From Desulfuromonadaceae bacterium (GTDB lineage Bacteria > Desulfobacterota > Desulfuromonadia > Desulfuromonadales > Geopsychrobacteraceae), in assembly GCA_013138655.1 (NCBI GenBank), contig WTCI01000148.1, positions 1-12,278 on the forward strand: 12,278 nt of DNA, given 5' to 3'. The position numbers and the translations under genes were made by a program. Positions 6,448 through 12,278 of this stretch are shown one piece after another (positions within the stretch are counted from its first letter, which is position 1; each line of letters opens with the position of its first letter). The notes under the pieces are model-generated. The model was not told where the DNA came from and ran no database searches. It saw nothing but the letters and a program-made list of their open reading frames with translations.

Positions 6448-6893
6448 AATGATCCTGCAGCCACTTGAAGACAGGTCAAACAATTTGGCATGTCTTCTCT
6501 GTTTATTTCGTATTGCGTGCCTGGATTTATAAGTAGTATGGCAGCTCCCGCATTCTTTGCATAATCGCGGTTCACGCGCGATCTATCCTTATTCGTTGGG
6601 TTTTCTTATTGTCTCTGAACAGGCCCCTGTGGAATAAACTCTTTTATTAATGGCTTTGCTTCTTGTTCTGTAATCTGTTTCATTACTAAAGGGTCACCTG
6701 TAATCGGGATTCAAGTAATCCGCTTCGCGGCAGAAGTTCCTGAAATAAACATCTTCCCTTCAGTTCTTTCCGCCCTGCTTTCCCATTTTACCTGAAAAAT
6801 CCTTCCGTACCAGCCGAGCATCTGCTTCTCCTGTCCACAAGCCGTCTTCCGTGGCGAAACTTATTTCAAAGATCCATGCCCAAATACGGGCTT
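6448..6893. other. Gene-poor region with minus-strand ORF fragments
   Basis: No complete gene is supportable in this stretch of about 450 bases. On the minus strand there are two startless fragments with protein-like character: one ending at 6760 (reading ATEDGLWTGEADARLVRKDF before its TGA), and one around 6612-6715 (reading GDPLVMKQITEQEAKPLIKEF before TAA). I recognise neither. They may be decayed distal cassettes or a broken gene at the edge of the array. No convincing promoter for the cyclase was found, although one should lie here. Confidence 0.4.
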
Positions 6894-6950
6894 CTTGAAC
6901 AATGGATTGAGACGACCTTTCAGGTCGTCTCAATCCTTATAGGTTAGGGT
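6894..6950 (-). other. Possible attC site / terminator hairpin of the DUF4019 cassette
   Basis: A perfect 15-bp inverted repeat (6904-6918 with 6922-6936, loop TTC) lies directly after the DUF4019 stop. It is bracketed by CTTGAAC (6894-6900) and GTTAGGG (6944-6950), which on the minus strand read GTTCAAG and CCCTAAC, close to the R' and R'' cores of an attC. The total length of 57 bases and the position three bases from the stop fit a cassette site. A fully paired stem without extrahelical bases is unusual for attC and would also serve as a terminator, though no T tract follows. Both readings remain open. Confidence 0.4.
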
Positions 6951-6952
6951 GC

Positions 6953-7381
6953 TTACCGGATGTAGTAACCTGTTACGCGCCACTCACCGTCACTTTCGAG
7001 CATGGGAGTGACTGTTTCTATTGCATTTTTCTTGTTTGTGAATGACGTAGAAAATTGAATAACAACATATTCTCCGTCAGGAGCACCAGGCAATGATTTT
7101 GTGTACTTTTGCCCTTTTATTTCTCTTTTGATGAGATTACCGAAGGTTGGCCGAAAGCTTTCAAGTTGCTTCTCCCACTGCTGCTTCGAAACTTGCTGTT
7201 TAAAAAAACTCGAAGTAGCATCCCAACTTTCCGAGTAACGACCAGAGTCGACAAGTTGTAGGAAATTTTCTGCTGCGGAGATGGCCGCCAGTTCTATTGA
7301 TTGGTCGGCAAAAGAAGCAGGTGCCAGGATGAGAAATGCCAGGAAAACGGCAAATGATTTAATTGTTGTAGAAGTTTTCAA
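6953..7381 (-). CDS. Secreted DUF4019-family protein
   Basis: About 142 residues with a signal peptide (M/KTSTTIKSF, hydrophobic FLAFLILAP, cleavage after ASFA). The mature part carries the DUF4019 pattern: A-A-FLQLVDSGRYSESWDATSSFF, then QWEKQLES, LPGAPDGEYVVIQFSTSF, and the end ETVTPMLESDGEWRVTGYYIR. The function of the family is unknown; the protein should be periplasmic. I chose TTG at 7381 because GGAGGG lies four bases before it. The GTG at 7393 would place the Shine-Dalgarno inside the gene and add four residues ahead of the signal peptide. It is the leftmost gene of the minus-strand cassette series. Confidence 0.85.
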   Translation of the reverse strand: MKTSTTIKSFAVFLAFLILAPASFADQSIELAAISAAENFLQLVDSGRYSESWDATSSFFKQQVSKQQWEKQLESFRPTFGNLIKREIKGQKYTKSLPGAPDGEYVVIQFSTSFTNKKNAIETVTPMLESDGEWRVTGYYIR

Positions 7382-7417
7382 AATGCCCTCCACATTTTAA
7401 AGTTTTTGCCTGCTAAC

Positions 7418-7730
7418 GAGCCTGTAGAAAAACTCTAGGAGGCTGTCGGACTATCCGGGCCGAAGCGAAAATTTGGAAGTTTGAGGCCGGATTTGGGCTC
7501 GTTTGAGAGCGCATAGCCGTAGCTATGGGCTGAAAAGGAGCTTAAATCTGGACCAAACAGCCGGATTTGCAGCTGGCTCATGGATAGTCCGACAGCCTCC
7601 TAGCAGTACTATGGCCTAAGAAAACCGGCCTCGAAATTTGGCCTCTGATTGATTTTCTCTACCTGGCGAATAATTTTGCCATCCTCGAAAATCGATACTT
7701 TCATCATTTCTGAGGTTTTTCTACAGCCTC
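7418..7730. mobile_element. Outer MITE-like element inserted in attC
   Basis: The ends are inverted: GAGCCTGTAGAAAAACTC at 7418-7435 against the complement of 7712-7730 (GAGGCTGTAGAAAAACCTC), one mismatch and one indel. It is flanked by AAC on both sides (7415-7417 and 7731-7733), or AACG if the left end lost one G, which looks like a target-site duplication. Without the inner element it would be about 145 bases. It holds a 32-codon minus-strand frame (7609-7707, starting MMKVSIFEDGKIIR) that I do not recognise, and no transposase. Confidence 0.6.
7435..7603. mobile_element. Inner 169-bp MITE with perfect terminal repeats
   Basis: The 18-base ends GAGGCTGTCGGACTATCC (7439-7456) and their exact complement (7582-7599) are flanked by CTAG on both sides, a likely 4-base target duplication. 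The interior folds back on itself: a CATAGC/GCTATG hairpin at 7512-7527 marks the centre, and the arms at about 7491-7505 and 7538-7552 are complementary at most positions. No ORF of note is present. It has inserted inside the outer element, whose ends share the first eight bases GAGGCTGT. Confidence 0.85.
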
Positions 7731-7821
7731 AACGGTTGCGATAATCGGCGGCGACGCGACACTCGCGACCCACTGAACTATTCGAGAATTTCGGCTGGCA
7801 ATTTCCATCCGCGTTTATTTG

Positions 7822-8235
7822 TTATGTTTTTTTCTTTTGAAGTACTTTATTATTTTCTATTCCCTTTTCTTTCGCAAGAAACTCAAAAAATTTCTTTATA
7901 CCAACCTTCAGATCGTTCTCTGTAGCATTGTCCCAAACTTTTCTTTTATACCAACTTCTGAAATGGGTATTTGCGATGCCTTTAGTGATTTCTTCAATGC
8001 TCGATACGTCAGTTTGTCTGCACAAAAACTCAATGAACATTGTAATTGTGCCAGTATGTTTGTTTGCAGTATTTTCAGTATATTTTTCCAATAGTGAATC
8101 ATAAAAATCATCTCTAAGGCATTCGAGATAAGTCTTGAAAGGCTCCCGCTCTTTTTCTGCTTGTTTCAATGCTTCGAAATATTCTTCGATATTTTCGCCA
8201 GGAATAGATACTTTGCCAGTGAATACTTTTGCCAA
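7822..8235 (-). CDS. Cassette protein resembling a stand-alone integrase core-binding (SAM-like) domain
   Basis: 137 residues, helical and charged, with no signal peptide. Residues about 50-130 (KYTENTANKHTGTITMFIEFL, then SIEEITKGIANTHFRSWYKRK, then DLKVGIKKFFEFLAKEKG) have the rhythm of the N-terminal core-binding domain of tyrosine recombinases. The whole catalytic domain (R-H-R-Y) is absent, and the gene ends in Lys-rich QKKKT at the attC core. It could bind DNA or antagonise a recombinase, but that is inference and I do not recognise a named family. The start TTG at 8235 has AGGA about eight bases upstream. The sequence is visibly more A+T-rich than the genes left of 6500, fitting foreign origin. 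Confidence 0.75.
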   Translation of the reverse strand: MAKVFTGKVSIPGENIEEYFEALKQAEKEREPFKTYLECLRDDFYDSLLEKYTENTANKHTGTITMFIEFLCRQTDVSSIEEITKGIANTHFRSWYKRKVWDNATENDLKVGIKKFFEFLAKEKGIENNKVLQKKKT

Positions 8236-8255
8236 TTTAAATTCCTATTCTTAAA

Positions 8256-8310
8256 AGCTAACGGTTTGAATTCAGCGGCCGGCCTGGTCCGCTGCAATGA
8301 TTTGCTAGGC
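8256..8310 (-). other. attC site (55 bp)
   Basis: Left core AGCTAAC (8256-8262; minus strand R' GTTAGCT) and right core GCTAGGC (8304-8310; minus strand GCCTAGC) surround a central CAGCGG/CCGCTG stem. The right core has C where the consensus GTTRRRY has T, and it contains the TAG stop of the gene to the right. The placement between two minus-strand genes and the length are typical of an integron attC. Confidence 0.65.
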
Positions 8311-8724
8311 GGCACTTCCCTGCAACCGTTCGAGAAACATCTGTGCTTTTGATGTCTTGAATCTACACTCTATTGTACCAGACCATTTCTCATTGAACGC
8401 TGAAGCGTCGTATGTGACGAACAACGAATCGCTTCCCTCAATGGCGCAGGTGAGTTCAGAGAAATTTTCGTGATCCAACGGAACGTAAATGAGTGGCTTG
8501 AACAGAGCAAACGCTGCAAACGTACGCTCAGTAAGCACAATACAACCTGTAAACCAGCTTCGTTTCCAGGAATGGTACCGACCAGGAGCCTTAAACTTCT
8601 TGAGAGTGATTGATCCGCCGATACCTTCATCTAGCAAGATTATGCCCTCGCCGTAGAGCGTAGGCGCATACCGCTTCGGGAGTTTTCCCCAGCCAAAGAA
8701 GCGGTGCAGTAGAGTCTTTTTCAT
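8305..8724 (-). CDS. Cassette protein of unknown function, possibly PH-like fold
   Basis: 139 residues with no signal peptide or membrane helix. The basic N-terminus (MKKTLLHRFFGWGKLPKRY) is followed by alternating beta-rich segments: GEGIILLDEGIGGSITLKKF, SWFTGCIVLTERTFAAFALF, then SDSLFVTYDASAF and the end GTIECRFKTSKAQMFLERLQ. The strand pattern ending in one helix suggests a PH-like barrel, but only by impression. ATG at 8724 follows the upstream attC core by about 17 bases and has no clear Shine-Dalgarno, common for cassette genes. It has its own attC on the left. Confidence 0.7.
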   Translation of the reverse strand: MKKTLLHRFFGWGKLPKRYAPTLYGEGIILLDEGIGGSITLKKFKAPGRYHSWKRSWFTGCIVLTERTFAAFALFKPLIYVPLDHENFSELTCAIEGSDSLFVTYDASAFNEKWSGTIECRFKTSKAQMFLERLQGSAA

Positions 8725-8740
8725 CGTCGTTTTAGGCGCC

Positions 8741-8831
8741 GCCTAACGGTTCTGACCTGAGCGGCGGCGTACTCAGGTACGAACTCAACGAGAACCGCCA
8801 CTGCTTCCCCGTCCGAACTCCTGGGTTATGA
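8741..8831 (-). other. attC site (91 bp)
   Basis: The left core GCCTAAC at 8741-8747 gives a perfect R' GTTAGGC on the minus strand; the right core GTTATGA at 8825-8831 gives TCATAAC. Inside, CCTGAG/CTCAGG and GGTTCT/AGAACC pair. It lies directly after the DUF3024 gene stop at 8839. This is one of the clearer sites in the array. Confidence 0.7.
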
Positions 8832-8838
8832 GTAGTTT

Positions 8839-9186
8839 TTAGCCCCAGAAACAGGCATATTCATCTTCTTCAACAACAGCCAAAAACTCCTCGATAGTTT
8901 TCACTTCTGGTGTGGGTTCATATTTGTGCCATTTAAGGTCGGCACGTTGCCAGTAGATTTTCCATGTTTTTGTGTTTTTAACGTACGTTGCCTTGGAAAT
9001 TGGTGACTCTATTTTTTCCCCTGGTTGGTTCCATAACTCTCTGATTTCATAAATTATGACGCTTTGCCCTTCAATTCGAAAGGCAAGATCCACTTGGTTT
9101 CGAACATGAGGTGCCGGTCGGCGCTTTTCTATGTACTGGCCAACTATTTTTTCATATCTCTTTATTTCAAATTCGCTGATTGCCAT
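8839..9186 (-). CDS. DUF3024-family protein (cassette gene)
   Basis: 115 residues, cytoplasmic. It matches the DUF3024 pattern closely: an N-terminal helix, RPAPHVRNQVDLAFRIEGQSV, IYEIRELWNQPGEK, then KATYVKNTKTWKIYWQRADLKWHKY, and the ending EFLAVVEEDEYACFWG. Members are small, often found in mobile or cassette settings, and of unknown function. It starts at ATG 9186, about 13 bases after the neighbouring attC core, with no strong Shine-Dalgarno. An attC follows 8 bases after the stop. Confidence 0.88.
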   Translation of the reverse strand: MAISEFEIKRYEKIVGQYIEKRRPAPHVRNQVDLAFRIEGQSVIIYEIRELWNQPGEKIESPISKATYVKNTKTWKIYWQRADLKWHKYEPTPEVKTIEEFLAVVEEDEYACFWG

Positions 9187-9299
9187 AGTCTTTACTCATA
9201 ACTGGTAACGATAATCGGCGGCGACGAACAACTTGCGACCCGCCGAACTATTCAAATTTAAAACAGAAGTATTTTCCGTCCGGTTCATTGGATTGATAC

Positions 9300-9384
9300 T
9301 AGTGCAGGCCCCCTCCATAGATACCGGACCACCCGGTATCCTTTGAGACTTCATGCAAACCTTCAAAGAAAGGAGCCTGCACTA
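9300..9384 (+). ncRNA. Candidate bridge-RNA-like fold in the IS110 leader
   Basis: Ten bases at 9300-9309 (TAGTGCAGGC) pair exactly with 9375-9384. Inside is a perfect 8-bp hairpin (9320-9327 with 9333-9340, loop ACCAC). The outer stem covers the transposase start codon. IS110 elements are known to encode a structured bridge RNA in their non-coding end that specifies target and donor DNA. Whether this fold is that RNA, or a translation-blocking hairpin, cannot be told without comparison to intact copies. Confidence 0.35.
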
Positions 9385-9719
9385 TGAGATTCTACACGAA
9401 ACAGCATCAATTTTATTGCGGTGTCGATCTGCATGCCGACGCCATGTATGTCTGCATCCTCGATTCCTCCGGGGGAATTGTCCTGCACAAGAACATTCCG
9501 ACCCGGCCGAAATCCCTCCTGAAACTGATCAAACCCTATCGTGACAGTCTGGTGGTCGCTTGTGAGTGCATGTTCTCATGGTACTGGCTGGCCTCTCCCA
9601 CATGCTTCGCGCGATGGTCCAACGGGCCAGCGCCGGATTCTGCCCCTTCCCCGACCCCGCACCTAACTGCGGCCATCAAAGAATTGATGGACCCTGATTT
9701 TTTGAATGGGACGGCATAA
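9384..9719 (+). pseudogene. IS110-family transposase, N-terminal fragment
   Basis: 111 codons. Residues 1-69 are clearly IS110: KQHQFYCGVDLHADAMYVCILD carries the first Asp of the DEDD RuvC-like site (D15), and ACECMFSWYWLA the Glu (E61). After residue 70 the sequence (SPTCFARWSNGPAPDSAP...) no longer fits the family; the remaining acidic residues and the C-terminal serine domain are missing. AAAGGAG lies upstream of the ATG but inside the hairpin at 9300-9384. An intact family member is about 330-400 residues, so a deletion joint lies near 9592. Confidence 0.85.
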
Positions 9720-9966
9720 GGGTACGAGCGTGATTCCAGGCGGCAGGGAGAACTCGAAGCCGAGCCCCTGCATCAAAGAGCCTCTATAAGTGTTTGGAGC
9801 AGAATTCGTCTGCAGCCAGAAGAGAATCCCAGGTCAGAAACCGGATGGCCTTGGTTTGATCAGTCACATGTCAAAGAACGAAAAACTTCAATCTTTTACG
9901 TTCGCGGGGTTTTTTTGTCCTTGACGAACGGGGGCCTGATAAGGGTTAGATGGCTTTTTTGAAAGG

Positions 9967-10239
9967 TCATCTTTTTAAAACTTCGTACTCCAGTCTCTTC
10001 AAGCGCTCACCGGTTTTATACAATTTGTATTCAAGCTTCAGGATCCGTTGTTGCATTCCCGTAATCATTACAGATTGTTGGCTGTTTTTCCTTAGTAATT
10101 CAACTAATAGCTCATTGTTAGTGGCAATGTTTTTTTGTTGAAGCTGAGTATTTTCAATCGTGCTGTTTTCGTCGGTGTTTGCATGAGCAGGGCCGGGAAA
10201 AATACCGAGTAGGAATATAAGAAATATGATTTTTTTCAA
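9967..10239 (-). CDS. Small secreted coiled-coil protein (cassette gene)
   Basis: 90 residues: a signal peptide (MKKIIFLIFLLGIFPGPAHA, cleavage after AHA), then a polar mature part with heptad-like spacing (LLVELLRKNSQQ, MQQRILKLEYKLY, RLKRLEYEVLKR) that should form a coiled coil in the periplasm. I do not recognise a family. TTG at 10239 is chosen because GGAGGG lies four bases upstream; the ATG at 10251 would put that Shine-Dalgarno inside the frame. The same arrangement (TTTAAATG-like, GGAGGG, TTG, AAA) starts the DUF4019 gene at 7381. Confidence 0.7.
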   Translation of the reverse strand: MKKIIFLIFLLGIFPGPAHANTDENSTIENTQLQQKNIATNNELLVELLRKNSQQSVMITGMQQRILKLEYKLYKTGERLKRLEYEVLKR

Positions 10240-10266
10240 TTTTCCCTCCATTTAAATATTGTTGTC

Positions 10267-10466
10267 ATTTAACGGCCCGGGCTGTTGAGCCGCGAGACTC
10301 GCAGGTAGCGGAGCAAGCTTGTTTGCGCAGACACTGAGAATCGCAGTCGGCTCGAACGCCATGGATAGGTGGAGCGCGTAGCGCGGAACCAATCCATGAT
10401 GTGAGAGTTTACTCGCCAGCCCGGGCCGATAAGTGGATCGCGAAGCGGTCCACTTATCGGTCTTGG
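10267..10466 (-). repeat. Palindrome-rich, ORF-less block beginning with an attC core
   Basis: ATTTAAC at 10267-10273 (minus strand GTTAAAT, a perfect R' core) starts a set of strong palindromes. There are 12-base arms at 10273-10284 and 10417-10428; an interrupted hairpin near 10361-10400 (CATGGAT...ATCCATG around GCGCGTAGCGC); and perfect 12-base arms CCGATAAGTGGA/TCCACTTATCGG at 10427-10438 and 10450-10461. GATAAGT after the first stem resembles a degenerate right core. I read it as an oversized attC or a non-coding cassette carrying REP-like hairpins. No protein is plausible on either strand. Confidence 0.45.
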
Positions 10467-10556
10467 GTAACCGGGCGCGCGGAGACGGTACGGTAAGCAA
10501 GGACTTTTTCGGAAACCGCCCAGCTTTATTCGCTCCGGTTGACCCGCGTGTTATGC
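10465..10556 (-). other. attC site (92 bp)
   Basis: Left core GGGTAAC (10465-10471; minus strand GTTACCC) and right core GTTATGC (10550-10556; minus strand GCATAAC). The arms GGGTAACCGG and CCGGTTGACCC pair with one extrahelical base, a feature expected of attC. The right core contains the TAA stop of the following minus-strand gene (10551-10553). Confidence 0.6.
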
Positions 10557-10889
10557 CAAGCCCTTATTTTCTTTATAGAATTCGATGGTTCTTTCAAGAG
10601 ACCCGAGGCAATTTTCTTTGACTTCTTCTTCTTTTATCAGGCCTCTTGCGATCCCCCTGGCAACAGCCATTTCAGGATCGCCCATCGCATATATTTTGTA
10701 TAGATCTCTTGATTTATAATTATGGTGTTGATGAATCTTTTCATTTAAGTCTAATGGGTTTAATTTGCCTTTTTCCCATTTTTTGAATTCTTCAAAAAGT
10801 CCGCCCAAGGCCAAATTCATTTCTTTCTCATAGGTAAGGCCAGCAAGTTCTCTCAAATGCTTTTTCTGCTTCTTATTGAATTCGCTCAT
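10551..10889 (-). CDS. Hypothetical cassette protein, 112 residues
   Basis: A charged, mostly helical cytoplasmic protein: MSEFNKKQKKHLRELAGLTYE, then LGGLFEEFKKWEKGKLNPLDL, NEKIHQHHNYKSRDLYKIYAMGD, and AVARGIARGLIKEEEV. I believe similar FNKKQKKxLRELAGLxYE proteins are widespread as unnamed small genes, but know no function. There is no signal peptide and no catalytic pattern stands out. ATG at 10889 lies 40 bases after the attC core at 10930-10936, with a loose AAGAGAAG upstream. It is flanked by attC sites on both sides, which makes it a complete cassette. Confidence 0.8.
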   Translation of the reverse strand: MSEFNKKQKKHLRELAGLTYEKEMNLALGGLFEEFKKWEKGKLNPLDLNEKIHQHHNYKSRDLYKIYAMGDPEMAVARGIARGLIKEEEVKENCLGSLERTIEFYKENKGLA

Positions 10890-10929
10890 AGGTTAAATCT
10901 TCTCTTTGATGTTCTCTTTTATTCTTTTG

Positions 10930-10987
10930 GCATAACGTTGAGCTCAGGGGCACCCGTTAGGGTGTCCCCTGCAGCGACTGGTTGGGC
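10930..10987 (-). other. attC site (58 bp), best in the array
   Basis: Left core GCATAAC (10930-10936; minus strand GTTATGC) and right core GTTGGGC (10981-10987; minus strand GCCCAAC) fit the consensus. The centre CAGGGGCACCC...GGGTGTCCCCTG (10945-10971) pairs with one bulged T around GTTA. The L-box region (GTTGAGCT against AGCGAC) has an unpaired base, as attC sites do. It begins five bases from the stop of the methyltransferase gene. Confidence 0.78.
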
Positions 10988-10991
10988 GATC

Positions 10992-11537
10992 TCACTTCAC
11001 AGCAACACCAAAGAACTCAACCCCATGCCTGCCAGATGACACAGCCAAGTTCGGGGCGATTACCCAGCCATGCTCGCTCAAGAACAGGCCGAGTTCTTCG
11101 GATCGCGTACTCCAGAGCCACGGTTCCCCGACAAGCTTAAGAACCCACAAAACCAGCCGTGTGCAAAGACCGGCATCAGGCCGACCGTCCGAACGAGTGC
11201 CGACATAGGTGAACGCGATCCGACTACCAGAGTCGCTGATTGCGGCGCACTGATGGAACAGAGCCCCGACCGCTTCCGGAGGCAGGTACATCAACAGGCC
11301 TTCGGCCACGATGACCGTTGGGGCAGTAACCCTCCATATCTCGTTCGCGCGCAGGACGTCCACCAGCTGCCGTTTGCCAAGGTCTTCTGCTATTAGGTGA
11401 AGATTGGCCAGCTCCCCCATGGCACTGATTCCCTTTGCCTTGAGGCGAGCGGTGGCGGGATGATCAATTTCAAAGAACTCCACACCGGCAAACTCTGGTG
11501 CCAGACGCCACCCTATCGTGTCATAGCCAGCACCCAA
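10992..11537 (-). pseudogene. Leucine carboxyl methyltransferase-type (PPM1/LCMT) SAM methyltransferase, N-terminally truncated
   Basis: About 181 residues of a class I SAM-dependent methyltransferase of the LCM family: LGAGYDTIGWRL (SAM-binding motif I), FFEIDHPATARLKAKGI (acidic residue binding the ribose), then TAPTVIVAEGLLMYLPPEAV and a C-terminal VEFFGVAVK. Family members normally have about 90-100 residues before LGAGYDT; here the frame runs back only about 20 codons to a stop at about 11598, within sequence belonging to the RAYT element, and its first possible start is a TTG inside motif I. The N-terminus was probably lost when the RAYT element inserted. Bacterial substrates of this family are mostly unknown. 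An attC follows, so it was a cassette gene. Confidence 0.8.
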
Positions 11538-11603
11538 GACGAGACAGAATGAATACGGGGTCGGACCAAGCCAAGCTGTTGATATTCAACAAAAACCATT
11601 CCA

Positions 11604-11912
11604 AAAATACCTGTTTTTAGATGCTATAGGGCGATTTTCGGCCTCAAAGTCGGGCCTATAAATTTCCTGTCCTTCACGAAGAACGAACGCGCCGTAATTT
11701 CGGCGACATCACGCGACCTTCCCTTCAGGCCAAGAGCATCCTGTGTTCTCCGGACAAACTCTGAACTTCCTACGGCGACGGTTTGGATCCAATAACCAGT
11801 GAATGAGCCGCTGGCGATCGCGGGCAAACTTCAACAAAAATTCCTTTTTGTGGCACCGGTGCGTGATGTGCCAGATGTAGCCGGGGATGAAATGCCTATG
11901 AGCTCTCGGCAC
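11604..11912 (-). pseudogene. REP-associated tyrosine transposase (RAYT, Y1_Tnp), deleted copy
   Basis: From GTG at 11912 the frame gives the RAYT N-terminus, PRAHRHFIPGYIWHITHRC then KKEFLLKFARDRQRLIHWL, including the HUH-adjacent start of the family. It then jumps after about 36 residues to the C-terminal part in another frame: WIQTVAVGSSEFVRRTQDALGL and KGRSRDV. About 600 bases holding the catalytic His pair and Tyr are missing, with a frameshift at the joint near 11790. The C-terminal frame ends at 11624-11626 and its homology continues slightly beyond. It is a non-functional relict parallel to the copy at 12033. Confidence 0.8.
11624..11661. repeat. TATAGG palindrome, copy 1
   Basis: CTATAGG (11624-11630) faces GGCCTATA (11653-11660) across a C/T-rich centre. 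It shares layout and many bases with copies at 11953-11992 and 12109-12146 and falls in the degenerate C-terminal end of the deleted RAYT copy. It is the most diverged of the three. Confidence 0.5.
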
Positions 11913-11952
11913 GGCCGACTCCCCCTCCTAAGTGAAAACACACTGTAATTTA

Positions 11953-11992
11953 CTTATAGGTCTGTTTTTGACCCCAAAAATCGGCCTATAAG
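11953..11992. repeat. TATAGG palindrome, copy 2
   Basis: CTTATAGG (11953-11960) pairs with CCTATAAG (11985-11992), and inside it TTTTTG pairs with CAAAAA around ACC. It lies between the two RAYT copies in non-coding sequence. It shares TTTTTGACCCCAAAAA with the copy at 12109-12146. Confidence 0.6.
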
Positions 11993-12032
11993 GGCATTTT
12001 AGGGGTCAAAAATGGAACATTTTCTTTAATTA

Positions 12033-12278
12033 TCAATTGGTTAGCTTGGTCCGACCCCGAGCACCGAGCACCGTTTTTACACGAAAAACATCCCATAAAA
12101 GTGCGTTTTTAGACGCTATAGGCCCATTTTTGACCCCAAAAACAGGCCCATAGCTCTCTTCGGTCTCCCGTAACACGTACACATCGTCGTTTTCTGCAAT
12201 ATCCCGCTTGCGACCTCGGGCTCCAAGTGCTACCTGGGTTCTTTGTGCAAACTCGGCACTCCCGACGGCAATACTTTG
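12033..12278 (-). CDS. REP-associated tyrosine transposase (RAYT), C-terminal part
   Basis: 81 codons plus stop, open at the right edge of the window. It reads SIAVGSAEFAQRTQVALGARG, then RKRDIAENDDVYVLRETEES and YGPVFGVKNGPIASKNALLW, ending GARGRTKLTN. The GSxxFxxRTQxALG stretch is the typical RAYT C-terminus after the HUH/Tyr catalytic domain, which would lie right of the window. RAYTs are single-stranded-DNA transposases thought to spread REP palindromes. The last codons are formed by the inverted repeat at 12044-12059, and a TATAGG palindrome is embedded in the coding sequence. Whether this copy is intact cannot be seen. Confidence 0.75.
   Translation of the reverse strand, partial: QSIAVGSAEFAQRTQVALGARGRKRDIAENDDVYVLRETEESYGPVFGVKNGPIASKNALLWDVFRVKTVLGARGRTKLTN
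12109..12146. repeat. TATAGG palindrome, copy 3, inside the RAYT reading frame
   Basis: CTATAGGCC (12109-12117) faces GGCCCATAG (12138-12146), with TTTTTGACCCCAAAAA between. On the minus strand it encodes the RAYT residues YGPVFGVKNGPIA, so the palindrome is used as coding sequence near the protein's C-terminus. Confidence 0.6.

Follow-up and report, generated by a model that had tools for sequence, protein, structure and literature searches.

In the integron literature, an IS1111-attC group of insertion sequences (ISs), belonging to the IS110 superfamily, was reportedly described by Tetu and Holmes in 2008 and by Post and Hall in 2009. Clusters of attC sites lacking integron integrases (CALINs) and IS1111-type elements at attC are already known from the accessible portions of three reports (PMC11187229, PMC11089894, and PMC7923331). 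In the available text of the first, ISKpn4 and ISPst6 insert at a constant position beside one attC end; in that of the second, the IS5, IS3, and IS1111 groups are the main transposases among cassette-associated proteins; and in that of the third, group IIC-attC introns are attC-homing mobile elements that have no relation to the integron integrase IntI. According to the available part of PMC5678879, the IS1182-family member IS1272 replaces inverted repeats without target duplication. No description of IS1182 elements homing to attC was found in searches of the open-access literature. Here we describe a window of 12,278 nucleotides, the whole stretch that was analyzed (contig WTCI01000148.1, here C306:1-12278), from the genome of a Desulfuromonadaceae bacterium (GCA_013138655.1, here G000; 2.45 Mb in 364 contigs, 93% complete), which probably belongs to the family Geopsychrobacteraceae, order Desulfuromonadales.

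On sequence grounds, the region from ∼6943 to 11550 is very probably a CALIN whose cassettes were gathered by IntI and in which three attC sites hold transposable elements brought by transposases that prefer attC. Like CALINs and sedentary chromosomal integrons, it consists of small genes without promoters that all point the same way, each with an attC behind it; further attC sites are scattered in the genome, and no integrase is nearby. It differs from CALINs in that three attC sites hold elements that appear to home to attC and in that a dispersed repeat cuts the array at its right. The likeness to the IS1111-attC group lies in an IS110-type remnant at a fixed place at one attC end, whereas this remnant is truncated and was filed as IS110-type; group IIC-attC introns differ in being retroelements without terminal repeats.

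The cassette array and its attC sites

The preliminary description, made from the sequence alone, had interpreted the region as an integron cassette array in which small minus-strand genes alternate with attC-like sites, and the results support that interpretation. Seven such genes lie between 6953 and 11537, three of them without an assigned family, and alternate with the attC sites as follows (ORF, open reading frame; scores are for the covariance models R1 and R3).

11550 to 12278, minus: dispersed repeat at the right edge (repeats I1 to I3)
10992 to 11537, minus: cassette 1 gene, S-adenosylmethionine (SAM)-dependent methyltransferase (LCM/TIGR00027 type), 5' part absent; PF04072, 71.9 bits
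10930 to 10987, minus: attC 1, R'' GCCCAAC, R' GTTATGC; R1 20.5, R3 46.2 bits
10551 to 10889, minus: cassette 2 gene; ORF without a match in the Pfam/NCBIfam search
10452 to 10556, minus: attC 2, R'' GCATAAC (contains stop codon), R' GATAAGT at 10458-10452; R1 60.3, R3 17.8 bits
10267 to 10458, minus: apparent ORF-less cassette, a short hairpin and then a long attC (∼10434-10267, R'' ACTTATC, R' GTTAAAT)
9967 to 10251, minus: cassette gene, small protein with a signal-peptide-like start (by eye); ORF without a match in the Pfam search
9196 to 9301, minus: attC 3, main part, R' GTTATGA, with R'' ATCTAAC apart at 9945-9951; R1 62.5, R3 9.8 bits (9204-9294)
8839 to 9186, minus: cassette gene, DUF3024; PF11225, 136.3 bits
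8741 to 8831, minus: attC 4, R'' TCATAAC, R' GTTAGGC; R1 22.2, R3 12.7 bits
8305 to 8724, minus: cassette gene; ORF without a family in the Pfam/NCBIfam search
8256 to 8310, minus: attC 5, R'' GCCTAGC (contains stop codon), R' GTTAGCT; R1 27.3, R3 36.1 bits
7822 to 8235, minus: cassette gene, small protein with weak likeness to the SAM-like core-binding domain of tyrosine recombinases; sub-threshold matches to PF13495 (18.3 bits) and Xer models
7727 to 7827, minus: attC 6, R'' ACATAAC (contains stop codon), R' now GTTGAGG; R1 56.5, R3 13.3 bits
6953 to 7393, minus: cassette gene, DUF4019, signal-peptide-like start; PF13211, 134.2 bits
6943 to 6949, minus: R''-like core CCCTAAC of the last attC, from sequence; remainder of the site not seen

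Model R1 was built from 34 attC sites aligned from relatives, with the window and its sister copy left out, and was run with filters off. Model R3 was built from 34 other, mostly short attC sites with the structure specified by hand and was substituted for a model R2 that took only 6 pairs. The E values of R1 and R3 are rough, so that scores were relied on. In the R1 training sites, TAAC of R'' pairs with GTTA of R', as does the inner arm (AACCGG or AAGCGG) with its partner (CCGGTT or CCGCTT); one pair of the alignment has changed in a compensatory manner (C-G in 19 of 34 sites, G-C in 15). Paired cells made up 87.9% of the R3 alignment versus 72.1% in shuffles, none of the 500 shuffles being as high, whereas its count of eight pairs with two-sided change was equaled or exceeded in 61 of the 500 and so does not stand out from shuffles. 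The fold with paired R''/R' and inner arms was found on the relatives' sites, and the sites of the window fit both models.

R1 gave six matches in the window, all on the minus strand and at 20.5 to 62.5 bits, compared to 9.3 bits for the next best match anywhere. On the same six sites, R3 gave two strong scores (46.2 and 36.1), three weak ones (17.8, 13.3, and 12.7), and one partial match (9.8), and its best score outside the array was 6.3 bits. The check proposed beforehand, a covariance search for attC, thus returned six sites above background, consecutive and on one strand, where at least two define a CALIN. The stop codon lies inside R'' for the genes beginning at 7822, 8305, and 10551 and 3 to 15 nt ahead of R'' for the other four, in agreement with the earlier remark that several R'' cores contain or touch stop codons.

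The individual cores named earlier fared differently. GTTAGCT, GTTAGGC, GTTATGA, and GTTATGC are R' cores of R1 matches, and GCCCAAC is the R'' of attC 1. GTTACCC is not an R' core but the L' arm of attC 2 in the R1 alignment, and GTTAAAT was assigned to the long attC of the ORF-less cassette, a site that R1 does not find. GTTATGA and ATCTAAC are the R' and R'' of one site, which is split (9951-9945 versus 9301-9196) by the IS110-type remnant. The leftmost repeat, 6894-6949, had been misread; neither R1 nor R3 matches it, and its hairpin is the end of an IS91-type element that directly follows an R'' at 6949-6943.

The stretch 10267-10458 appears to be a cassette that has a long attC of its own but no ORF. 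A 78% copy lies behind an attC match on another contig of the same genome (C109), and the cassette folds at -102.9 kcal/mol over 199 nt (a value without shuffle control). Partial relatives occur at five loci (L045, L046, L047, L050, and L051), and at one of them (L047, in G035) an attC whose 21-bp arms match perfectly comes after a hairpin; these may form a family of noncoding cassettes.

The SAM-like cassette protein encoded at 7822-8235 had 125 homologues at E ≤ 0.001, nearly all of ∼136 amino acids, in a search restricted to 0.55 to 1.75 times the length of the protein, which fused relatives would escape. Many homologues carry PF02899, and several come from cyanobacteria, a Chloroflexi metagenome-assembled genome, and Desulfamplus. 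Kinship with the long IntI of G004 was considered and dropped, as comparison gave no similarity. The cassette 1 methyltransferase also matches TIGR00027 (97.6 bits; cut-off, 93.55) over model positions 86 to 245 of 259.

Integrase genes in this genome and its relatives

The TIGR02249 model (cut-off, 265 bits) finds no intI above cut-off in the assembly, which is 93% complete, and the contig ends at 12278. The preliminary description had placed intI to the right of that end, unless this was an orphan cluster; the orphan cluster is the better description, because the rest of the assembly shows no intI. The best TIGR02249 match in the genome, a 309-amino-acid frame at 74.4 bits, is of a kind present in nearly all relatives and was taken for Xer. 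A 63-amino-acid frame on C104 contains a 24-residue tyrosine recombinase match (G000:C104:16666-16737; 27.9 bits), perhaps the last trace of an integrase.

Relatives have both arrays and intI, so that the array reading does not fail on their absence. TIGR02249 matches above cut-off occur in 25 of 60 genomes, and DNA matches to window positions 7715-7835 in 27 of the 60 (this genome included), several on contigs with intI; some of these cover the transposon end of the query only. In G004, the unit adjoining intI is closed by an attC of the same type as those in the window (82.6 bits). In the genome of the window itself, R1 gave nine matches on six contigs (four on C306 and one each on C59, C177, C325, C109, and C12, the last weak at 25.8 bits) when 150 of 545 candidates were scored, and one contig ends at its attC. 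Such scattering fits an orphan set.

It is possible, if unlikely, that the array is part of a complete chromosomal integron whose intI lies in the unassembled part of the genome. Among the nine further genomes of the genus (G001 to G009), G004, G007, G008, and G009 have a full intI and G006 a partial one; each full intI lies near a contig end, and hence breaks there are common. Since integron borders break assemblies and this one is 93% complete in 364 contigs, intI could be missing. However, the other four genomes (G001, G005, the sister species G002, and G003, which is 99% complete) have weak TIGR02249 matches only; the attC sites are scattered over six contigs; and the right edge of the array, at ∼11550, is not attI but a dispersed repeat that truncates the first cassette gene. 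This repeat, with copies in G002 and on contig C12 of the same genome, presumably consists of remnants of a REP (repetitive extragenic palindrome)-associated transposase element; the Pfam search gave no match for its 67-amino-acid ORF.

For an orphan cluster, the cassettes would have been brought together by an integron integrase that was later lost or was supplied by an integron-bearing relative. Such an IntI, of the relatives' kind, would have recombined the folded, single-stranded attC at G|TT of R', and the array would persist without it. The sister species provides a further comparison. G002:C111 carries window positions 7412-9200, comprising three cassettes and a miniature inverted-repeat transposable element (MITE), at 99.0% identity, whereas core DNA beside the array is 93 to 94% alike between the two genomes. 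Homology of the chromosomal flank in G002 ends at window position 6523, and the visible sequence beyond that point holds no array. The block thus occupies another place in G002 and is more similar than the core DNA, a pattern expected from exchange. Its right break falls directly behind GTTAGC.

Some features of the relatives' integrons were recorded alongside. At 11 of 20 intI loci (L011, L012, L014, and L016 to L023), IntI has ∼120 to 190 extra N-terminal residues ahead of the family match, taking the most upstream ATG as the start, compared to 5 to 50 at the other nine. The SAM_4 model matches two stretches in all three long integrases tested, which suggests a doubled core-binding domain. 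The presumed attI of L016, L017, L019, L022, and L023 has an unexpected palindrome of ∼30 to 35 nt, ∼80 to 110 bases upstream of intI, with arms that vary by genome and stay complementary (GGCAGC/GCTGCC, GGTAACC/GGTTACC, and GCTGAGC/GCTCAGC). A tie to long IntI alone was discarded, as L013 and L015, with short IntI, are also palindromic. At L087 (G046:C10:713801) and L088 (G017:C88:1154), attC matches lie 3' of intI on the same strand, as in reverse integrons.

Transposable elements at the attC sites

Three unrelated transposable elements occupy one attC site each in the window, and each has a set position within its site: the IS110-type and IS91-type remnants directly behind R'', and a MITE at the R' crossover.

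9302 to 9941 (approximate), plus: IS110-type remnant within attC 3, with truncated transposase ORF 9384-9719; 79 to 85% matches in relatives
7418 to 7730, minus: MITE, 313 bp, IS1182-type ends, GTT on either side; relatives have a transposase
7435 to 7603, no strand assigned: nested second MITE, perfect 22-bp terminal repeats including CTAG (repeat I4)
6710 to 6942, minus: IS91-type remnant with terminal hairpin 6904-6936; matches in G048, 90% (6860-6948) and 80% (6710-6862)

The MITE sits exactly at the crossover of attC 6, with junctions GTT, GAGGCTGTAG...CTACAGGCTC, GTTAGC and ends GAGGCTGTAGAAAAAC and GTTTTTCTACAGGCTC. The R' of attC 6 reads GTTGAGG because the element starts behind GTT. 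The longest ORF of the MITE has 48 amino acids, and with no transposase of its own it was filed only as a MITE with IS1182-type ends. In the ten genomes of the genus, three copies of it were found, one in G000 and two in G002. One of the latter, the 148-bp copy on C179 (L221:1064-1211), lacks the nested MITE, follows an attC-like hairpin, and has GTT at its left and GTC at its right; this lone hairpin stands behind a GAF-like gene and upstream of a formate/nitrite-transporter-like gene (names by eye). The ends of the nested MITE, GAGGCTGTCGGACTATCC, are flanked by CTAG and are much like IS1182-type ends of Nitrincola, and an 84% copy lies at L039:6727-6890.

Elements of 1.8 kb with the ends of the MITE occur in G039 and G048 and encode transposases of 514 to 516 amino acids. 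These relatives have both the DDE transposase (271.8 bits against the IS1182 family model; cut-off, 270) and the matching ∼16-bp terminal repeats that mark the IS1182 family, of which IS1272 is the studied member. They had been met through an attC query, and the search was therefore repeated with the transposase alone. It returned 19 copies or fragments in 12 of 98 genomes (this one included). GTT preceded all 14 copies with a locatable left end and flank, and an attC was recognized by eye at 11 of them, the others being L095, L098, and L103.

A scan of one genome per species, in which the best 80 of 235 relatives were kept (some shared with the 98-genome search), extended this result. GTT stood on either side of 61 of the 68 copies in which both ends were located. 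Among the exceptions (L118, L135, L142, L168, L170, L176, and L190), one end is seemingly misplaced in L118, L168, and L190. A left end and at least 60 bases upstream were present for 66 copies. In 38 of them, an attC model match ends no more than 1 base from the expected position, always in the orientation of the transposase; 35 of the matches reach E ≤ 1, and L152 duplicates one of the R1 training sites. R3 alone, trained on attC sites that do not adjoin an IS though partly from the same arrays, placed 32 of the 66 at E ≤ 1 by our count. About 0.03 coincidences would be expected by chance (our arithmetic from 117 matches in 417 kb, both strands).

These elements come from Desulfuromonadales, other Thermodesulfobacteriota, Nitrospirota, Gammaproteobacteria, and Betaproteobacteria. 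Plasmid copies 43 to 46% identical occur in Pseudoalteromonas and Catenovulum, and plasmid copies annotated as IS1182 are 25 to 31% identical, among the matches listed (30 of 1569). Confinement of attC homing to one transposase clade was considered and rejected: a tree of 76 transposases required 24 label changes, versus a shuffled mean of 25.1. With the attC label unclustered, the habit is not limited to one clade of the set. It seems probable that a wide branch of IS1182 and its short nonautonomous derivatives harbor at attC in one orientation, at G|TT, with duplication of GTT, and that attC is shared by three transposition chemistries. Unlike IS1272, as the available part of its description has it, these elements have GTT flanking both ends, and their target is the R' of attC.

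GTT is also the crossover core of IntI. The IS1182-type units at G|TT might thus be cassettes moved by the integron integrase rather than by a transposase that chooses attC. The sequences of G000 and G002 differ directly after the right GTTAGC of the MITE, which is compatible with, though no proof of, continued recombination at the occupied site. However, the right end of the units does not supply its own R'' and arms. Furthermore, three copies are flanked by another 3-bp repeat (TTT in L135, AAT in L170, and AAC in L176), as target duplication would give, and several copies in Desulfospira joergensenii stand at GTT sites without an attC match. Movement as cassettes is accordingly an improbable explanation, and insertion by an attC-preferring transposase is the reading retained here.

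The IS110-type remnant lies directly behind the R'' of attC 3. It matches PF01548, a truncated DEDD domain, at 18.7 bits (under the cut-off of 29), and longer elements in relatives match over both its ends at 79 to 85%. Five longer copies (L024, two in L025, L027, and L029) end beside an R''-like AAC; as in the IS1111-attC group, the insertion in the window and in these five copies sits at a constant position relative to one attC end.

The IS91-type remnant immediately follows the R'' of the last attC. Between the stretches of G048 that match it stands a gene with partial similarity to Y2_Tnp (70.2 bits). When up to three mismatches are allowed, 6 of 96 genomes contain the hairpin, and six of its seven copies stand behind an R''-like core with AAC intact and at most 2 departures from RYYYAAC. 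Counted by locus, relatives' hairpins stand behind R''-like cores in five of six (L194 and L196 to L200). These may represent an IS91 branch homing to the R'' of attC.

Contrary observations and implications

Besides the incompleteness of the assembly, several observations weigh against the reading given above. R3 yields only 9.8 to 13.3 bits at three of the six main sites, and at the long attC (∼10267-10434) R1 gives no match and R3 9.3 bits over 10278-10363. A crude core-plus-arm scan was dropped as proof, most sites being indistinguishable from chance. Among 30 first-order Markov sequences, the highest score was 11.4; the only minus-strand site to surpass all of them was 10930-10987 (12.2), and a plus-strand hairpin that is not attC, 6894-6949, scored even higher (14.4). 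The left break of the block in G002 is not a clean crossover product, since identity begins inside R' GTTATGA with differing bases adjacent, together with a G002 copy of the dispersed repeat that adjoins the array in the window. Of the 66 IS1182 copies, 28 have no attC model match at the left end; among these, L121, L127, and L164 look like attC and L161 and L171 do not, and only one of the seven copies kept from Desulfospira joergensenii has a match. The seventh copy of the IS91-type hairpin (L199) follows GGAAC, and the constant AAC before this hairpin could belong to the element itself.

That the attC-like sites are mere terminators, REP palindromes, or transposon ends between small genes, as the near-chance crude scan and the transposon end at 6894-6949 might suggest, is hardly credible given six model matches on one strand at 20.5 to 62.5 bits versus 9.3 elsewhere and the same sites adjoining intI in relatives. 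A second arm score, applied to IS flanks, also discriminated poorly (at least 12 in 23 of 58 sites versus 67 of 677 controls, which were drawn from the same arrays and hence include real attC sites), and the covariance models were used instead. An Rfam search gave two chance-level matches, none of them attC.

For a CALIN occupied by attC-homing elements, each of the three elements would have arrived by a transposase preferring attC. What the IS1182-type transposase seems to recognize in attC is the R' side, and GTT is apparently duplicated upon insertion. After such an insertion, the upstream attC would read GTTGAGG, which keeps six of the seven consensus positions, and a full R' would be rebuilt at the right, so that the next cassette keeps its border. 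With the GTT core kept on both sides, the element would become the 5' part of the next cassette. The IS110-type and IS91-type insertions, in contrast, would break the site.

The array by itself is ordinary, and the homing elements matter more. If the IS1182 branch behaves as proposed, an element need not break an array and may travel with the next cassette, and attC would be a common landing site for three unrelated transposition chemistries, with IS110 and IS91 at R''. An IS1182-type family that reads attC and keeps the crossover core would be a further independent solution beside IS1111-type elements and group IIC introns, and its homing would introduce mobile DNA into arrays that need not be destroyed by it. 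It would also offer a simple system for learning how a DDE-type transposase recognizes a site that is variable in sequence and constant in structure.

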